Assembly: GCA_018292915.2 (NCBI GenBank)
Contig: JACVVK020000216.1
Span: 1 to 64,000, forward strand
Direction of reading: 5' to 3'
Length of the DNA stretch: 64,000 nt
Source of the DNA: Batillaria attramentaria
Taxonomy: Eukaryota > Mollusca > Gastropoda > Batillariidae
Shown here: in pieces, positions 13,134 to 46,830 of the stretch
How positions within the stretch are numbered: position 1 is the stretch's first letter
How the letters are laid out: the number at the start of each line of letters is the position of its first letter
Translations under genes and position numbers: made by a program
The notes under the pieces: model-generated
Database searches by the model: none
The model's input: the letters and a program-made list of their open reading frames with translations, nothing else
Told to the model about the DNA's origin: nothing

Positions 13134-13775
13134 CACAGTGACGTCTTGTCACAGTTACGTCTTGTCACAGTTACGTCTTGTAACAGTTACGTTCTTGTCA
13201 CAGTTACGTCTTGTAACAGTTAAGTCTTGTCACAGTTACGTCTTGTCACAGTTACGTTCTTGTCACAGTTACGTCTTGTAACAGTTAAGTCTTGTCACAG
13301 TTACGGCCTTGTCACAGTTTCGTCTTATCACAGTTACGTCTTGTAACAGTTAAGTCTTGTCACAGTTACGTCTTGCCACTGCTACGTCTTGTCACAGTTA
13401 CGTTCTAATGACAGTTACGTTCGTGTCACAGTTACGTCTTGTTACAGTTACGTTCTTGTCACAGCCACGTCCTGCCACAGTTACGTCTTGTCACAGTTAC
13501 GTTCTATGTCACAGTTACGTCTTGTCACAGTTACGTTCTATGTCACAGTTACGTTCTATGTCACAGTTTCGTCTTGCCACAGTTTTGTCTTCCACAGTTA
13601 CGTCTTGTCATAGTTACGCCATGTCACAGTCACGTCTTATCACAGTTACGTTCTTGTCACAGTTACGTTCTTGTCACAGTTACGTTCTTGTCACGTTCTT
13701 GTCACAGTTACGTTCTTGTCACGTTCTTGTCACAGTTACGTTCTTGTCACCTTTACGTCTTGTCACAGTTACGCA
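13134..13775. repeat. 16-17 bp minisatellite (cacagttacgtcttgt)
   Basis: About forty units of cacagttacgtcttgt or the 17-bp form cacagttacgttcttgt fill the tract. The right edge runs into 'gcagagcgctttgaagag', which matches the interior of the P family ('gtcacagttgcagag..gcgctttggag' at about 35,575). The array probably arose from part of a P element. Open frames through it are artefacts. Confidence 0.95.
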
Positions 13776-21657: not shown

Positions 21658-22534
21658 ACTGAGAGACAGACATCGACAGACAGACAGACACTGACTGAGA
21701 CAGACACTGAGGAAAGCTGAGGAAGGAAAGACTTACGCCCCTAACTATGGCAAAAACGGCACGAAGATGGCGGGTAGGGGCCGGGAAGGTGAGGGGGAAA
21801 GGGGGGGGGGTGTGGAGGAAAGGTGGTGAGAGTAGCAAGGTTTGAGACGAGTCTCGGAACACCATTGCCTGACCAGTGTAAGTCTCCCCTCGAGTGTGGC
21901 GTGTACGTGTCGGTGTGGTGAGGGGGGAACTGGCGGGTATCTGCCACATTCCGCGCCGCCTTGCGTTACCTACAGCAGCATGCACTACTGACACCTTGTT
22001 GACTTGACTTGCCTTTTCCTTGCCCTGCGTTTCTGTCCTCGCTAACTTTCGGCAGGCAGTGCTACAAACTGTGTAGGTCAGTAGACGCACTGTTAGGGGT
22101 AGATAAGGAATGAGCGCGATACTGAGTCAAAACGAGGCTCCGACTGTGTTCTTTTCCGGAAAAGACAAATCAAACAAAAACCATGAGGCAATCCAAAAAA
22201 GCGTATGTAACCTTAACACTTAGTTTACCACGTTTCAATCTTTCCGCGAGGGTGTCGTGGAGACGGGGTGGGGGAAATTTTAAGTTAACAAGACTAGACA
22301 TGTAATTTAAATGTTAAAACGACTTTCCGACCGCAGACCAGTGACGTCATGAACGAAAGCCGGAAAAACAACTTGAGGAACAAATCCCAGTGTGCCTTGC
22401 TCTTGGGTTTGGACAATGAGAACTGAAGCAGCACAAAACTGATACTGACTGATTTAGTTGAGTTTCCAGCCTGGATTCGAACTCACGACCCCAGCATTGA
22501 TAGCTCACCGCTCCACGAGCTTCAAGTGCCCGTC
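21658..22534. other. Probable intron flank of Ginger element
   Basis: Contains CAGACA-like words near 21,670-21,720 and otherwise unique sequence. A tRNA-like 'ggattcgaactcacgaccccagcattgatagctcaccgctcc'-type block at 22,473-22,516 resembles the reverse of a SINE head but lacks the SINE-A body. Confidence 0.4.
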
Positions 22535-22538
22535 CCGG
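22535..22538. repeat. Target-site duplication CCGG, left
   Basis: CCGG immediately precedes the terminal TGTAG of the left inverted repeat. The same CCGG follows the right terminus at 27,044-27,047. CCGG-specific duplications are characteristic of Ginger1 elements. Confidence 0.92.
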
Positions 22539-22769
22539 TGTAGCATCCGGTCCGGTCCCCCCTCTGAAGTAGTCCCCCGGGGGACCAATTCGTGGCAAAA
22601 ACTGCTCTATAATGGTCCCCCCCTTAGACATCCAGCCTCGTTTTCGACTGGTCCCCCTGGGCGATTTTGGTCCCCCCTCGCATCCAAAATAGGCCCCCTC
22701 TCGAACTGGTCCCCCTCTTTTCTAATCAATGTAGAGCTATGTCAGTATTTATTTTTAACTTTATTGTTA
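22539..22769. repeat. Ginger1 left terminal inverted repeat
   Basis: 231 bp starting TGTAGCATCCGG. It carries repeated GGTCCCCC-type words and the perfect 14-bp palindrome GTCCCCCGGGGGAC at 22,572-22,585, likely binding sites for the transposase or a host factor (inference). The inner end is 'aactttattgtta'. Confidence 0.93.
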
Positions 22770-23013
22770 CAAAACTTTATTGTCCCCAAAAGCACAGGGC
22801 CATAGGAACATTTTTTTTTCTTTTTTTTTCCCGATTTATGTGCTTGTTGTTATTTTTGTGTGTGTGAGATATATTTGTTTGGTTGTTGGTTCTTGTTTCT
22901 TTCAGTTGTTTTTTTGCATTGGTTCTTTTTTTTTGTTTTTGTTTATGAGATGGTTGTACCGAATACTAAACATTATTACTAGAATTTCAAACAATAAATA
23001 AATAAGTCAATCA

Positions 23014-23077
<64 letters not shown>

Positions 23078-23656
23078 ACTCTCTATCTCTCTCTCTCTAG
23101 CAAAACCTGAAATAGACATTTACGTTCTTTGACAAGAAAAACTTTATTTCAAAAGGTATGTCCAGTCAAACTGTGTCAAAGAAACAAGAAATGAAACAAG
23201 AAACAGTTAATGAATAGCAAAGAGTTGCAACAGAAATTGTTAACCAGAGCGCTGTGCACTTTATAACGCAACATAAATGTAAATTAATAAATTGTTAATC
23301 GCACATCTTGTCCTGAAATGAGCAAAATAATAACAATAGCAAAGTACAAAACAAACTTCTACCGTACTGTCTTTGCATGAAACGTCATCGAATGCATGAA
23401 AGTCCACATTTCCTGTCAATTTTTTTAAACTGGAAATAGCATTTAGAGAATAACATCAAAGACCAAGTATCTAATATTTTCTATACAACGCCATAGAAAA
23501 ATATTTCTTCAAAATTAAGTAAGTGTCCATGACATGAAAACTAGTTGCCACCTTTGGCTTTCAGCGTACTTCAAGTAGACAGTCAAGACTGAGTACCAGT
23601 GTCTCAAATCATGACGCTTGAAACAACAAAAACAGCAGAAGACTAACAGTTCTGGT
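22770..23656 (-). other. 3' region of the Ginger1 gene
   Basis: AT-rich, non-coding. A T/G-rich stretch lies at 22,800-22,940 and a CT-polyC-CT tract at 23,019-23,099. On the minus strand, AATAAA at 23,143-23,148 is a candidate polyadenylation signal about 510 bp past the stop codon; others may exist. Confidence 0.6.
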
Positions 23657-26105
23657 CTAAGGAGTGACACAAAAAACAGGAGCAAAGTGATGTCCAAGAT
23701 TCATTATATAAATTGCTCTGTCTGTTTTCAATGGGGCCGATTGCCAAACTGGCCCGTATTTCAGCCACCTAGGTTGTCGGCCTGGAGCCTCTCTTGTGAA
23801 CACATACACGGGCGTGTCCAAGAGGGTGGCTGCAGCAAATATCTCAACCTCGGTGGCCCAAGTACGGTCGTTTCTCATGTTTGATGTCGCGACGTAATTT
23901 TCACGTGCGCTCGTTCCGTAGAAGCGTTTGTCATTCTTTTCAATCCAATCGCAAATGATATTTCGGAATTCCTTATATTTCGACTCAGTCCCCAAAACAA
24001 CAAAGCTCACAGACCGGAAAAAACAATTCCCATCTCCTTTTACGCTAACGCTATCGAGAGGTGTAGCCGTAATGTCAACTTCAACACTTTCCCTTGAGGG
24101 GTGCCGCCTGAAAAGTCTGGGGAAATTCAAACTGGAGGCCCGATCCTTTTGCCAGGCACCATCAACGGGGTGGAACTTCATTCTCAATGGCGGCTGGCAA
24201 GAGGGGTCAGCCTGTGGATGATAGGAGGGGTCAGCCTGTGGAGCATGGGAGGGGTCAGCCTGTGGATGATAGGAGGGGTCAGCCTGTGGATGATAGGAGG
24301 GGTCAGCCTGTGGAGCATGGGAGGGGTCAGCCTGTGGAGTATGGGAGGGGTCAGCCTGTGGATGATAGGAGGGGTCAGCCTGTGGAGCATGGGAGGGGTC
24401 AGCCTGTGGATGATAGGAGGGGTCAGCCTGTGGAGCATGGGAGGGGTCAGCCTGTGGATGATAGGAGGGGTCAGCCTGTGGAGCATGGGAGGGGTCAGCG
24501 TTGTCCTGTGTACGATCATGGAACAATTTGACGTTGCTGATATTGTAGAGATTCTTCAGTATTTTCCCACTTTTAGTGTTCTTCAGTTGAAGTCGACCCT
24601 TGGGCAACACACTTATGACCTCATATGGCCCGACGAATCTTGGTGCCATCTTGCCTCCCATTCTGTGTACTCGTGCAGCATTGATGATTAAGACTTTGTC
24701 TCCGATGCGGAACCCGTGGTCATATGCACGCCTGCTGTCATAGTACTCTTTCTGCTTCTTCTGCGCCCTTGAAATGTTTTCACCAATTTTGTTCTTGACT
24801 TCCTCGTGAATCCCCTTCATAGTGTCCATGATTTCTTCGTTCAGATCTTGCTCGTTGGCATCACCAGTGACGTCAAATGGTAGTTTTGCCTGCTCACCAT
24901 ACAATGCCAAAAAGGGTGAAAACTGTGTAGACTTGTGAACGGATGTTCGGTAGGCGAACAGGGCTGCTGGCAAGAGTTCATCCCAATCATCATTGTCTGT
25001 GATCTTTACCAAAGTGTCTTTGAGTGTCCTATTGTCCCTCTCCCGTTGGCCGTTCGTCTCAGGGTGGTAGGCCGAAGAAATGCGATGGTTGATATTGAAA
25101 CGGTCGGTGAGAATATCAAGCGCAAAGTTAATGAACTCACGGCCTTGGTCAGTTATGAGGGAATCAAACGCGCCAAAGATGCAGATGGTTTCGTACATGA
25201 ATCTGGCAACTTCCTCTGAACTCTTGCACGGGATGGCCTTGGCAACGGGAAACTTTGTAAAGTGGTCTGTGAGGGCAACAATGTACTGGTTACCTCTGTC
25301 AGTGACCTGCAAAGGTCCTATGATGTCCATTCCAACGAGGCTCCACTTCTTTTTGGGCACTGGGATGGGGTGAAGCGGTGCTGCTGGCTTCTTTCTGCAA
25401 GCGTTCATGTTCTGGCACACACAGCATGATCTGCAGTAGTCTTCAACCTCCTGTTTCATTCCATGCCAGAAGTAACGCTCCAAGACCTAGAGAGAAAAAA
25501 GAGTAATGAAATATTTATAAATACTATGTCTTAAAGATAACTGGTAGATAACAGTGTGTGTGTGTGTGGGGGGGGGGGTGTGAGTGAGAGAGAGAGAGAG
25601 AGAGAGAGAGCCAGCAAAGGAAATGTCTTCAATCCGGAAAATGTCCGTTATATACCGAAGACATCGGCTATACCGGAAAATTTACGTTATATACGGAGTC
25701 ATCGGATATAACGTCCACCAGGACAAAAGTGGCCGCTATATCCGATGTGTTGGTTATACCAGACATACCAGAAACACACAAAACCTCGTTCCCATTCTAA
25801 AGCCTGTTAAAACTGGGAGTACAAAAACGGGTGCTCACCTTCTTATAAGTCTTGTTCATCCCCAAATGTCCTCCGCTCACATAGTTGTCATGAAACTCTT
25901 GCAATATCTCTGGAACCTGGTTCCTCTTTGCCACGAGGATTCCGTCGTGGTAGAGCACATCCTCTCGAATTGTGTATTTTGCAGCAGTCTTTCTCAACTG
26001 TCTCTTTTTAACTTTAGTCACATCACGGTTTTCCCCTTTCGCGGTCAGAGGGTAAGTGCCATTTTTCAAATAGTTCAACACGTTGTCATACAGAGTGTCG
26101 TCCAT
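23657..26105 (-). CDS. Ginger1 transposase with C-terminal OTU protease, two exons
   Basis: Exon 1 is 26,105-25,839 (89 codons) and exon 2 is 25,486-23,657 (609 codons plus stop), joined in phase 0 to give about 698 residues. The start is the first in-frame ATG of exon 1. Residues 72 and 80 (His) and 110 and 113 (Cys) form the integrase HHCC zinc finger, split by the intron. The DDE core has D143 (GMDIIGP), D202 (TDQGREF) and E238 (NGQRERDN); D202 and E238 are 35 residues apart, the classic DDx35E. GPY lies at 375-377 (FVGPYEV), a Gypsy/Ginger integrase motif. Thirteen eight-residue repeats (ADPSHAPQ or ADPSYHPQ) fill 419-522. The OTU domain is at about 567-696, with GDGNCFF (D574, C577) and LGHHF (H688/H689). 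Predicted role: cut-and-paste transposition in the nucleus; the OTU part may cleave ubiquitin, which is known for the fold but not shown here. All catalytic candidates are intact and no frame breaks were found. Confidence 0.92.
23666..24052 (-). other. OTU cysteine protease domain of the Ginger1 transposase
   Basis: The encoded segment has the N-terminal Asp-Gly-Asn-Cys box followed by aromatic residues, a middle Trp-Ala-Thr-Glu-Val-Glu-Ile block (OTU proteins usually have W(G/A)..E), and a C-terminal His-His-Phe. These match the family's Asp/Cys/His catalytic positions. The domain lies outside the integrase core, separated by the tandem-repeat linker. Confidence 0.88.
24188..24499 (-). repeat. 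24-bp minisatellite in frame in the transposase linker
   Basis: Thirteen 24-bp units encode ADPSHAPQ, ADPSYHPQ and minor variants (one ADPSHTPQ, a last ADPSCQPP). The unit length is a multiple of three, so copy number can change without breaking the frame. The same tract is open in other frames on both strands, which creates spurious peptides. The linker is Pro/His-rich and probably disordered. Confidence 0.95.
25487..25838 (-). other. Intron of the Ginger1 transposase gene (352 bp)
   Basis: Minus-strand donor AAG|GTGAGC at 25,839/25,838 and acceptor CTCTCTAG|GTC at 25,487/25,486 preceded by a pyrimidine tract. Removal joins Lys-Lys to Val-Leu-Glu-Arg-Tyr-Phe-Trp in phase 0 and restores zinc-finger spacing. 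The intron holds a GT/G/GA microsatellite (25,553-25,609) and degenerate repeats of 'tataccg/cggatat' words at about 25,630-25,765. Confidence 0.9.
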
Positions 26106-26172
26106 GATGATAGTCAATGAAAACGAAGACTGGTTGACGGAATGAATTGTCGTGTACTTATAATTATAGGCA

Positions 26173-26254
26173 TGTTTGACACGAGTCACGTGACGTGTCA
26201 AGAAGCGTGGCGATGTTTGACACGAGTCACGTGACGTGTCAAGAAGCGTGGCGA
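26173..26254 (-). promoter_or_regulatory. Tandem 41-bp repeat with palindromic E-box, upstream of Ginger1 start
   Basis: Two identical 41-bp units (26,173-26,213 and 26,214-26,254) each carry the perfect palindrome GTCACGTGAC (26,185-26,194 and 26,226-26,235), 80 and 121 bp before the start codon. CACGTG is bound by bHLH factors in animals. A promoter role is inference from position and duplication; no TATA box was identified. Confidence 0.5.
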
Positions 26255-26478
26255 CCGTTTTCTCATCCCACAAAAAAAAAAAAAAAGAGAAAACAAATCT
26301 AAACTTTTAAAAGTGATTTAACTTCGTAGATTTGCCGTTCTATGTAGCCTATACTTTTGTTTTTTAGTGGCGACCGTTTTCTCATCCCACAAAAAAAAAG
26401 AGAAAATAAAAAACAAAAGTATAGGCTACATAGAACGGCAAATCTACGAAGTTAAATCACTTTTAAAAGTTTAGATTT
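26248..26478. repeat. Perfect 72-bp inverted repeat (hairpin) in Ginger1 5' flank
   Basis: Arms 26,295-26,366 and 26,407-26,478 are perfect reverse complements over 72 bp with a 40-bp spacer. The spacer word 'gtggcgaccgttttctcatc' also precedes the left arm (from about 26,248), so spacer and arm are both duplicated, one directly and one inverted. Confidence 0.92.
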
Positions 26479-26564
26479 GACACTGTAACCTTGACCCAGT
26501 TCAAGATCATCTTGAATAACATCTCTGTACAAAAATGAAAATAATTATACATATAACGAAAGAG

Positions 26565-26566
<2 letters not shown>

Positions 26567-26638
<72 letters not shown>

Positions 26639-26741
26639 GTGCGTGCGTGCGTGAGTGAGTGTGCACGCGTGCGTGAGTGCGTGCATAATGTGTGTGTGTG
26701 TGTGTGTTTGAGAGATGGGGGGAGGAGAGAAAGTGTGGGGG

Positions 26742-26777
<36 letters not shown>

Positions 26778-26780
26778 GAG
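26567..26780. repeat. (GT)n, GTGC, (GT)n and (GA)n microsatellite inside Ginger1
   Basis: Long GT run, then GCGT/GAGT variants, a second GT run and a GA block. It sits between the hairpin and the right inverted repeat. Confidence 0.95.
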
Positions 26781-26820
26781 AGATCCAGAGTCACGTTTTC
26801 TACTGAGTTGACACACACTA

Positions 26821-27043
26821 TAACAATAAAGTTAAAAATAAATACTGACTACATTGGTTAGAAAAGAGGGGGACCACTTCGAGAGGGGGCCTATTTTGGA
26901 TGCGAGGGGGGACCAAAATCGCCCAGGGGGACCAGTCGAAAACGAGGCTGGATGTCTAAGGGGGGACCATTATAGAGCAGTTTTTGCCACGAATTGGTCC
27001 CCCGGGGGACTACTTCAGAGGGGGGACCGGACCGGATCCTACA
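26821..27043. repeat. Ginger1 right terminal inverted repeat
   Basis: 223 bp, complement of the left repeat with three substitutions and two indels. It ends GGATCCTACA followed directly by CCGG. Confidence 0.93.
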
Positions 27044-27047
27044 CCGG
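27044..27047. repeat. Target-site duplication CCGG, right
   Basis: Matches 22,535-22,538. Confidence 0.92.
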
Positions 27048-36524: not shown

Positions 36525-36788
36525 ATGTCCCCGTTGCTAGGATACGCTCCTTTGCGGCGCATGCTCTTGGTGGTCGTCGGGCTGTCGTCGATGATGTTGT
36601 CATCGGCGGTGGTGTCTGGCGACGGGTTGGTACTACACTCGCGTGAAGTGAGGGTCAAGGTCGGGAGGTCAGTGTACCTGGAGCGTGACGACCTGTCCAT
36701 AGCGCGGATACGGAGGGGGGAGGATTGTAGGGTGGAGGTGGTCATGGCAGACCCCATAACGCAGCGAGCGGGACATATGGACCCTCCG
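36525..36788 (+). CDS. First coding exon of a FRAS1/FREM-like extracellular matrix protein
   Basis: The ATG has a good context (CACCATG). The 88-codon exon ends at a strong donor CCG|GTGAGT in phase 0. Residues 8-32 hold a basic stretch and a hydrophobic core (LLVVVGLSSMMLSSAVV), a clear signal peptide. After it, GLVLHSREVRVKVGRSVYL, ERDDLSIAR and GEDCRVEVV..DPITQRAG match in order and spacing the start of mature FREM/FRAS1 proteins (Arg-Gly/Val-Gly-x-Ser-x-x-Leu, x-x-Asp-Asp-Leu, Cys-x-Val-x-Val-Val, Pro-Ile-Thr-Gln-Arg-x-Gly). Those proteins are secreted or membrane-anchored basement-membrane components with CSPG repeats and Calx-beta domains. The exon would be followed by others beyond the window; none was recognised up to 64 kb. 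FREM1-like is favoured over FRAS1 from the motif, but assignment by eye is limited. Confidence 0.75.
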
Positions 36789-36820
36789 GTGAGTACAATT
36801 TTATACTCTTCTGTCTGTCG

Positions 36821-40484: not shown

Positions 40485-40810
40485 CTTACTTACTTACTTA
40501 GGCCCCTGGCTCCACGTGGAGCATAGGCCATCGACAACCCTTCGCCATCGCACTCTGTTCTGGGCTATTCTTGCCACTCCAGTCCAGCTGGTCCCCTGCT
40601 TATATAACTCTGCCTCAGTGTCCCGCCTCCAGCTGTTGCGAGGCCGGCCTCTCTTCCTTTTCCCCTGTGGGTTCCATGTCAGGGCTTGGCGTGTGGTGCT
40701 GGATGCTGGCTTCCTGAGGGTGTGTCCAATCCAGCCCCACTTCCTCCGCAGGATCTGCTTGGTCGCTGGTTCCTGCCCTGCTCGCTCCCACAGCTCTTCG
40801 TTCCGTTCCG
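40485..40810 (-). pseudogene. 5'-truncated LINE insertion (reverse-transcriptase protein C-terminus)
   Basis: Minus-strand translation reads ELWERAGQEP, KWGWIGHTLRKP, GKRKRGRPRNSWRRDTEAEL and AQNRVRWRRVVDGLCS, then stops (stop codon at 40,494-40,496) and is followed by a (TAAG)n tail. This is the usual C-terminal end of RTE-like or related LINE ORF2 proteins. ttgatgtctgaata flanks it at 40,471-40,484 and 40,811-40,824 (perfect, 14 bp). The frame is open over the short remnant, but everything upstream (endonuclease, RT) is absent, so it is a dead fragment. Confidence 0.88.
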
Positions 40811-46226: not shown

Positions 46227-46610
46227 ATGTAAAGTCCGTTGGAAACACACGGTGTTGCTCAAATATGAAAATGGAAACACTCGGTGTTACTCAAATATGA
46301 AAATCGAAACACGCGGTGTTACTCAAATTTGAAAATGGAAACACTCGGTGTTACTCAAATTTGAAAATGGAAACACTCGGGGTTACTCAGATTTGAAAAT
46401 GGAAACACTCGGTGTTACTCAAATTTGAAAATGGAAACACTCGGTGTTACTCAAATTTGAAAATCGAAACACGCGGTGTTACTCAAATTTGAAAATGGAA
46501 ACACTCGGTGTTACTCAAATTTGAAAATGGAAACACTCGGTGTTACTCAAATTTGAAAATGGAAACACTCGGTGTTACTCAAACTTGAAAATGGAAACAC
46601 TCGGTGTTAC
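46227..46610. repeat. 32-bp minisatellite, type i, about 12 units
   Basis: Unit words 'ggaaacactcggtgttactc' and 'aaatttgaaaat' recur every 32 bp (some copies 31) with few variants (ggaaacactcgg to cgaaacacgcgg). Confidence 0.95.
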
Positions 46611-46830
46611 TGTTTGAAAACACTCCGTTCTGGCTGTACTACTGTTTGGAAACACTCCGTTCTGGCTGTACTACTGTTTGGAAACACTCCGTTCTGGCTG
46701 TACTACTGTTTGGAAACACTCCGTTCTGGCTGTACTACTGTTTGGAAACACTCCGTTCTGGCTGTACTACTGTTTGGAAACACTCCGTTCTGGCTGTACT
46801 ACTGTTTGGAAACACTCTGTGCTACTGGCT
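46611..46830. repeat. 32-bp minisatellite, type ii, about 6.5 units
   Basis: Unit words 'tttggaaacactccgttctg' and 'gctgtactactg' repeat every 32 bp almost without change, so this array is the more recent. Confidence 0.95.

Follow-up and report, generated by a model that had tools for sequence, protein, structure and literature searches.

The stretch of DNA analyzed here (the window) comprises 64,000 nucleotides of the gastropod Batillaria attramentaria (assembly GCA_018292915.2, contig JACVVK020000216.1, positions 1 to 64,000 of the forward strand). It contains a transposon of the Ginger1 group whose gene carries an OTU cysteine protease tail. We found that this element is very probably an autonomous OTU-type Ginger1 copy belonging to a family that has just come through, or is still in, a large transposition burst in B. 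attramentaria. This reading follows from independent CCGG target site duplications, a very large number of exact termini in the genome, near-zero divergence among the full-length copies read, and genes that are mostly intact in them. The element is a new, very young, and abundant member of a known group and not a new kind of transposon.

The element has the ends and the domain set of Ginger1

As described in the sections of Bao et al. 2010 available to us (PMC2836005; all statements from this paper below draw on the same sections), Ginger1 elements have CCGG or CCGT duplications, terminal inverted repeats (TIRs) of ~40 to 270 bp, TGTNR ends, and a protein with YPYY, H2C2, DDE, and GPY/F motifs. 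The protein ends in an OTU or Ulp1 tail (PMC2836005). The window element has a CCGG duplication, TIRs of 231 and 223 nt, and a TGTAG end that fits TGTNR, and its protein contains YPYY, H2C2, a DDE core, GPY/F, and an OTU tail. When the two arms are aligned, they differ by 3 substitutions and by indels of 1 nt and 7 nt. The motif GGTCCCCC occurs 13 times in the window, where 1.4 occurrences are expected, and 12 of the 13 lie inside the arms. Chance is not a serious alternative as the source of the inverted-repeat and CCGG structure. An annotation made earlier from the letters of the window (here, the first-pass annotation) had described these repeats with their three substitutions and two indels, the CCGG flanks, and the TGTAG ends, and every one of these was found again in the letters. 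Its assignment of the unit to a complete Ginger1 DNA transposon is upheld by the target duplication, the ends, the domain set, and the OTU tail.

Read from the minus strand and spliced, the gene encodes 698 amino acids with no internal stop; with its single 352-bp GT-AG intron, it matches the unbroken gene of about 698 codons proposed in the first pass. Six relatives (P0034, P0036, P0038, P0039, P0040, and P0049) align starting at residue 1 of the predicted protein. A Pfam search with exon 2 returned OTU (E 1.9e-10; 41.7 bits, cut-off 23.3), rve slightly below its cut-off (E 3e-7; 31.1 bits, cut-off 32.6), and a Tf2-1-like SH3 domain, also below cut-off. The H2C2 finger is split by the intron, and its parts scored 34.9 bits in exon 1 and 27.4 bits in exon 2 (cut-off 25.5). 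The catalytic residues are spaced D143-58-D202-35-E238 (D58D35E), with GPYEV at 375, a stretch that aligns with Ty3. Before the zinc finger, Y18-P19 and the tyrosines in KYTIREDVLYH were matched by eye to the described YPYY motif. Nineteen aligned rows show no change at the G, D, N, C, F, and R of the GDGNCFFR stretch and hardly any at the C-terminal His. The closest solved OTU relatives are OTUD5 and chains named RNA-dependent RNA polymerase, which we take to be the OTU domains of viral L proteins.

For the integrase part, the closest solved structure is Ty3 integrase (7q5b; E 1.3e-29, residues 30 to 391). This kinship would suit a reading in which a Gypsy long terminal repeat retrotransposon left the integrase gene behind as debris and inverted repeats flank it by chance, a reading that we regard as vanishingly improbable. 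The terminal repeats are inverted and not direct, and an OTU tail is present. Pfam revealed no reverse transcriptase in exon 2 or in the eight other open reading frames (ORFs) of the element with at least 100 amino acids, whose scan gave H2C2 in exon 1 and one DUF4368 match below cut-off. Moreover, the entire 4.5-kb unit recurs with identical ends and its own CCGG duplications, which already refutes the debris explanation. A Gypsy element proper was rejected on the inverted repeats and the lack of reverse transcriptase in the scanned ORFs, and Ginger2/Tdd, with an AT-rich target (RTATAY) and no GPY/F, was ruled out by the CCGG target and the GPY motif. In a tree of 28 integrase cores, built without named Ginger1 or Gypsy reference rows, the window protein groups with OTU-bearing relatives.

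The element recurs at independent CCGG sites

The B. attramentaria assembly (715,342,989 bases in 863 contigs) was searched for further copies, as the first-pass annotation had advised. The exact 34-bp terminus occurs 573 + 563 = 1,136 times, and its reversed control 0 times. Among 100 listed exact termini (contigs C1-C11), 54 pair into 27 elements and 46 are single ends. The 27 pairs comprise 17 of 4,469-4,821 bp, 6 of 1,474-1,789 bp, and 4 of 403-447 bp. Thus, the first-pass view that a full Ginger1 copy is uncommon does not apply to this genome, with its 1,136 exact termini and 17 of 27 listed pairs at full length. Of the three single ends that were read (out of 46), two belong to 1.7-kb elements whose other end is off by one base within the pattern, and the third belongs to a shorter element of ~0.46 kb. 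In the two short (403-447 bp) pairs that were read, of four, the element's ends surround an unrelated core, and a short element of ~0.46 kb (L049) retains much of the inverted-repeat region at 26294-26479. Extrapolating from this listed sample, with 73 insertions per 100 ends, we estimate, as opposed to count, ~830 insertions in the genome, ~190 of them full-length.

With the 234-bp left end as the query, 40 whole-query matches (40/40 at 100% identity) and 3 partial matches were obtained; 40 of 917 candidates were scored, which biases this sample to copies most like the left end of the window. Forty stretches were fetched, of which 39 hold an element and one (L048) does not. One of the 39, a tandem array (L042), was dropped for want of a simple end pair; together with the window this left 39 elements, 34 of them full-length and 5 of ~1.7 kb. 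CCGG stands on both sides of 35 of these 39 elements; the four exceptions are CCGG/CCGT, CAGG/CCGG, CGGG/CCGG, and GGGG/CCGG, the last at the inner junction of the tandem array. The left flanks are different in all 39. Together, the 35 CCGG/CCGG elements and the 39 distinct flanks indicate that the unit recurs independently. The tandem array itself (L042/L043, contig C9, about 2,625,000-2,642,000) runs head to tail, and its units lack ~137 bp at the right end and directly abut the left end of the following unit. P0001, a predicted protein with repeated integrase segments, may derive from this array.

The full-length copies read are nearly identical and mostly intact

For the divergence figures, the linker, simple repeats, and all other tracts of low complexity were masked and columns with gaps removed, which left 3,533 of 4,705 columns. 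The 34 full-length copies depart from the column majority in 22 of 120,122 cells; their mean pairwise difference is 0.036% (maximum, 0.2%), and 212 of 561 pairs are identical. Another filter, which kept 3,875 columns, gave a mean of 0.049% and 83 identical pairs of 561. The window copy has a single private difference, at 24602. A second sample comprised 8 of the 17 full-length pairs, chosen by their exact 34-bp ends only and absent from the first set, with 1,001 bp read in each. The private base of the window was absent in 8/8; six were otherwise identical to the window, and the others had one and two further differences. At an assumed rate of 2e-9 to 6e-9 changes per site per year, the mean of 0.036% corresponds to about 30,000-90,000 years, a figure that polishing may have lowered and errors may have raised.

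The first-pass annotation had called the insertion recent, partly on account of the small differences between the two arms. The near-identity of the copies does date it as recent; the arm differences do not. The same three substitutions and the 1-nt and 7-nt indels, and nothing more, separate the arms in 31 of the 34 full-length copies, and the other three have these differences plus extra indels of 1-2 nt. Because they are common to all 34 copies, the arm differences predate the burst, and arm divergence was rejected as a clock for the window insertion.

The 698-amino-acid frame is kept in 24 of the 34 full-length copies, including that of the window, so the claim of an intact gene with possible activity holds. 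Several points weigh against a young and active family. The frame is broken in 10 of the 34 copies: six have a common frameshift (589 amino acids), and the others end at 625, 199, 72, and 27 amino acids. The common frameshift falls in a T run (24018-24023, minus strand) that starts in the codon for the OTU catalytic cysteine. Its length is 6 T in most copies (27 of 34), 7 T in six, and 5 T in one; these length differences are likely homopolymer sequencing errors, a slippage site being the other option. Transposition activity of the family is predicted from the sequence. The 34 copies were drawn from the matches most similar to the left end of the window, which favors young copies, and PacBio sequencing with Pilon polishing can overstate the similarity of repeats.

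The last point bears on whether the near-identity of the copies is a product of assembly, by polishing or duplicated contigs, in an older family. According to the accessible sections of the genome paper (PMC10382545, drawn on in this form throughout), the assembly is indeed PacBio based and Pilon polished, with haplotigs purged. Still, we consider this explanation improbable, since the left flanks differ in 39/39 elements and seven copies of the 1.7-kb element retain a mean divergence of 0.45% in the same assembly. (These 1.7-kb elements are older, or of several sources.) The broken frames lend more weight to another explanation, that the burst is over and the family young but silenced, with the window copy a dead-end resident. 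We give this a serious hearing and somewhat less than an even chance; the 212 of 561 full-length pairs that are identical outside repeats and gaps speak against it. Collectively, we favor the reading of a burst that is just past or still in progress.

A near-identical protein in Nucella suggests horizontal transfer

A protein search returned 338 proteins, and relatives were taken from the best 120 of these, which include 29 Batillaria cluster representatives. Over residues 142-347, 26 of the 29 equal the window protein, the exceptions being P0009 (205/206), P0017 (166/166 aligned), and P0019 (163/166 aligned). Over residues 26-378, the Batillaria proteins have 8,823 aligned residues and differ from the window at 23; of these differences, 11 stand at alignment ends in P0014 and P0031. 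P0013 and P0019 have C113W and N115K in common, which would remove a zinc-finger cysteine, and possibly represent a dead subfamily.

One protein of the dog whelk Nucella lapillus, P0018, is identical to the window protein at 248/254 integrase residues and 154/163 OTU residues. Even its linker is alike, with 88 of 95 aligned residues identical (the window linker has 108) and the same ADPSHAPQ/ADPSYHPQ units. The tree of integrase cores places P0018 together with the window and two Batillaria rows (support 97/91) and puts another Nucella Ginger1-like protein, P0036 (46% identical to the window), elsewhere. P0018 has V211 and Q232, as do the Batillaria protein P0019 and also P0029 and P0032; at these positions the window has A and E, and the burst lineage therefore looks derived.

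Nucella is a neogastropod, as is Conus, and belongs to a superfamily and an order other than those of Batillaria. The Batillaria-Conus split is placed at about 230 million years ago (PMC10382545). An integrase difference of 2.4% and a common repeat linker across a split of this depth point to horizontal transfer, which the comparison suggests but does not prove. The case is built on one predicted Nucella protein, compared at the protein level, and this counts against it. The lone host comparison is a weak one from a third species: over 53 residues, Babylonia and the FREM1-type exon of the window share 79% identity. That a single near-identical Nucella protein was found among the best 120 of 338 would also fit vertical descent with strong constraint or a contaminated Nucella assembly. 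Either seems unlikely to us given the ~230-million-year divergence, the mere 46% identity of P0036, and the shared linker; furthermore, the P0018 match sits on a 2.4-Mb contig, and the Nucella authors, in the available part of their report (PMC12506669), state that FCS detected no contamination. A search of viral contigs for the element gave no match, and no report of Ginger1 horizontal transfer between marine snails turned up in the accessible portions of the open-licence PMC literature.

Chimeric gene models are probably annotation artefacts

In the published Batillaria gene set, integrase segments are predicted within proteins that carry varied other domains. Among the 29 Batillaria models, the segment starts at residue 24/25 in 15, at Met116 in 12, and elsewhere in 2, and it exits at 378/379 in 21, at 394/395 in 5, and at 347 in 3. 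Four of the 29 have the tail ADNLGG, which comes from the OTU region in a shifted frame, so at least those four copies carry OTU-region DNA; a protein search with the OTU region recovered none of the 29 models. The gene set was built in EVidenceModeler from Augustus, Trinity transcripts, PASA, and Exonerate (PMC10382545). Because identical DNA gives identical (ab initio) models, the chimeras are probably annotation artefacts. We find it doubtful that they instead reflect an ongoing, horizontally acquired invasion in which cryptic splice sites feed the integrase exon (24/25 to 378) into many host genes. Were it so, host-transposase fusions and an OTU-less isoform would be by-products of the burst.

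Features of the element and its surroundings

The features of the element are collected in Table 1. Upstream of the gene, the palindrome GTCACGTGAC was found twice against 0.08 expected, and this region may be the promoter.

Table 1. Features of the Ginger1 element in the window
Feature	Position	Strand	Remarks
Ginger1 element	22539-27043		4,505 bp; coordinates exact to the base
Target site duplication CCGG, left	22535..22538		Read directly in window
Target site duplication CCGG, right	27044..27047		Read directly in window
Left TIR, 231 nt	22539..22769	+	TGTAG terminus; contains GGTCCCCC motifs
Right TIR, 223 nt	26821..27043	-	Arm alignment
Exon 1, 89 codons	25839..26105	-	Start codon, YPYY motif, first portion of H2C2 finger
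Intron, 352 bp, GT-AG	25487..25838	-	Interrupts H2C2 finger
Exon 2, 609 codons + stop	23657..25486	-	Remaining H2C2 finger, DDE core (D143, D202, E238), GPY/F, repeat linker, OTU
OTU cysteine protease part	23660..24145	-	GDGNC and C-terminal His conserved among relatives
In-frame 24-bp tandem repeat, 12.5 units	24201..24499		Encodes ADPSHAPQ/ADPSYHPQ linker of 8-residue units
TATA-like TATAATTATAAG, begins 63 bp upstream of ATG	26157..26168	-	Putative promoter
Two tandem 41-bp units, palindrome GTCACGTGAC in each	26172..26254		Putative activator site
Perfect 73-bp inverted repeat, 40-bp spacer	26294..26479		Inside element, upstream of gene; adjoins 46-bp direct repeat

A short repeat that we read as resembling the head of a tRNA-type short interspersed element (SINE) is present at 22466-22516 and at 19 other places in the window, and the transposon is inserted just outside the copy at 22466-22516. 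ARAGORN and Rfam scans of the window, which bear on the tRNA-type reading, found nothing. Paralogous SINE copies were rejected as an empty site, the left-flank match ending ~20 bases before the insertion site.

Elsewhere in the window, a FREM1-like gene for an extracellular matrix protein has an exon at 36633-36791 (plus strand), probably its first coding exon, with a Frem_N match; it is the exon compared above, and the Babylonia species is B. areolata. The segment at 40488-40805 (minus strand) is 92% identical, at the protein level, to part of Batillaria P0008, and we read it as probably a long interspersed element fragment. Minisatellites lie at 13134-13773 (CACAGTTACGTCTTGT, about 40 units) and at 46240-46817 (two adjoining 32-bp arrays).

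Proposed mechanism and significance

From what is known of the family, the integrase-like transposase would bind the GGTCCCCC-rich ends, excise the element with its integrase-type active site, and insert it at CCGG sites, cutting with a 4-bp stagger. During transposition, the OTU domain may trim ubiquitin off host or transposase proteins, in line with the helper role proposed by Bao et al. (PMC2836005). Elements of ~1.7 kb and 0.4-0.5 kb, which have these ends too, are probably mobilized in trans, and the family probably entered by horizontal transfer, given its near-identical relative in a dog whelk of another order. Bao et al. describe the excision mode of Ginger1 as unknown and its families as small (PMC2836005). 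A family with 1,136 exact termini, in which the full-length copies read are near-identical and mostly intact, is a natural experiment and a good source of material for studying the role of the OTU domain and the means by which a retrovirus-like integrase can excise DNA as well. Confirmation of the Nucella relative in DNA would make it a case of Ginger1 horizontal transfer between marine snails.

Comparison with known systems

By its published description, Ginger1-1_AC of Aplysia californica resembles the window element in its OTU tail and gastropod host, in the CCGG duplication and TGTNR ends of the superfamily, and in length (4,336 versus 4,505 bp); it differs in having 140-bp inverted repeats, 2 introns, and at least 5 copies, whereas the window element has repeats of 231/223 nt, 1 intron, and a family with 1,136 exact termini (PMC2836005). 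Ginger1-1, -2, and -3_HM of Hydra, like the window element, have one intron and an OTU domain, with inverted repeats of 126-270 bp, and some copies of Ginger1-2_HM are less than 1% from their consensus, a further likeness to the window family (PMC2836005). They differ in copy number (>70, >100, and >74, respectively) and belong to another phylum (PMC2836005). The Nucella relative P0018, compared by its protein, differs from the window in having V211 and Q232. Finally, the integrases of Gypsy/Ty3 elements and retroviruses are related to the window protein over the finger, the DDE core, and the GPY/F region, but the window element is set apart from them by its inverted terminal repeats and by scanned ORFs that are free of reverse transcriptase.

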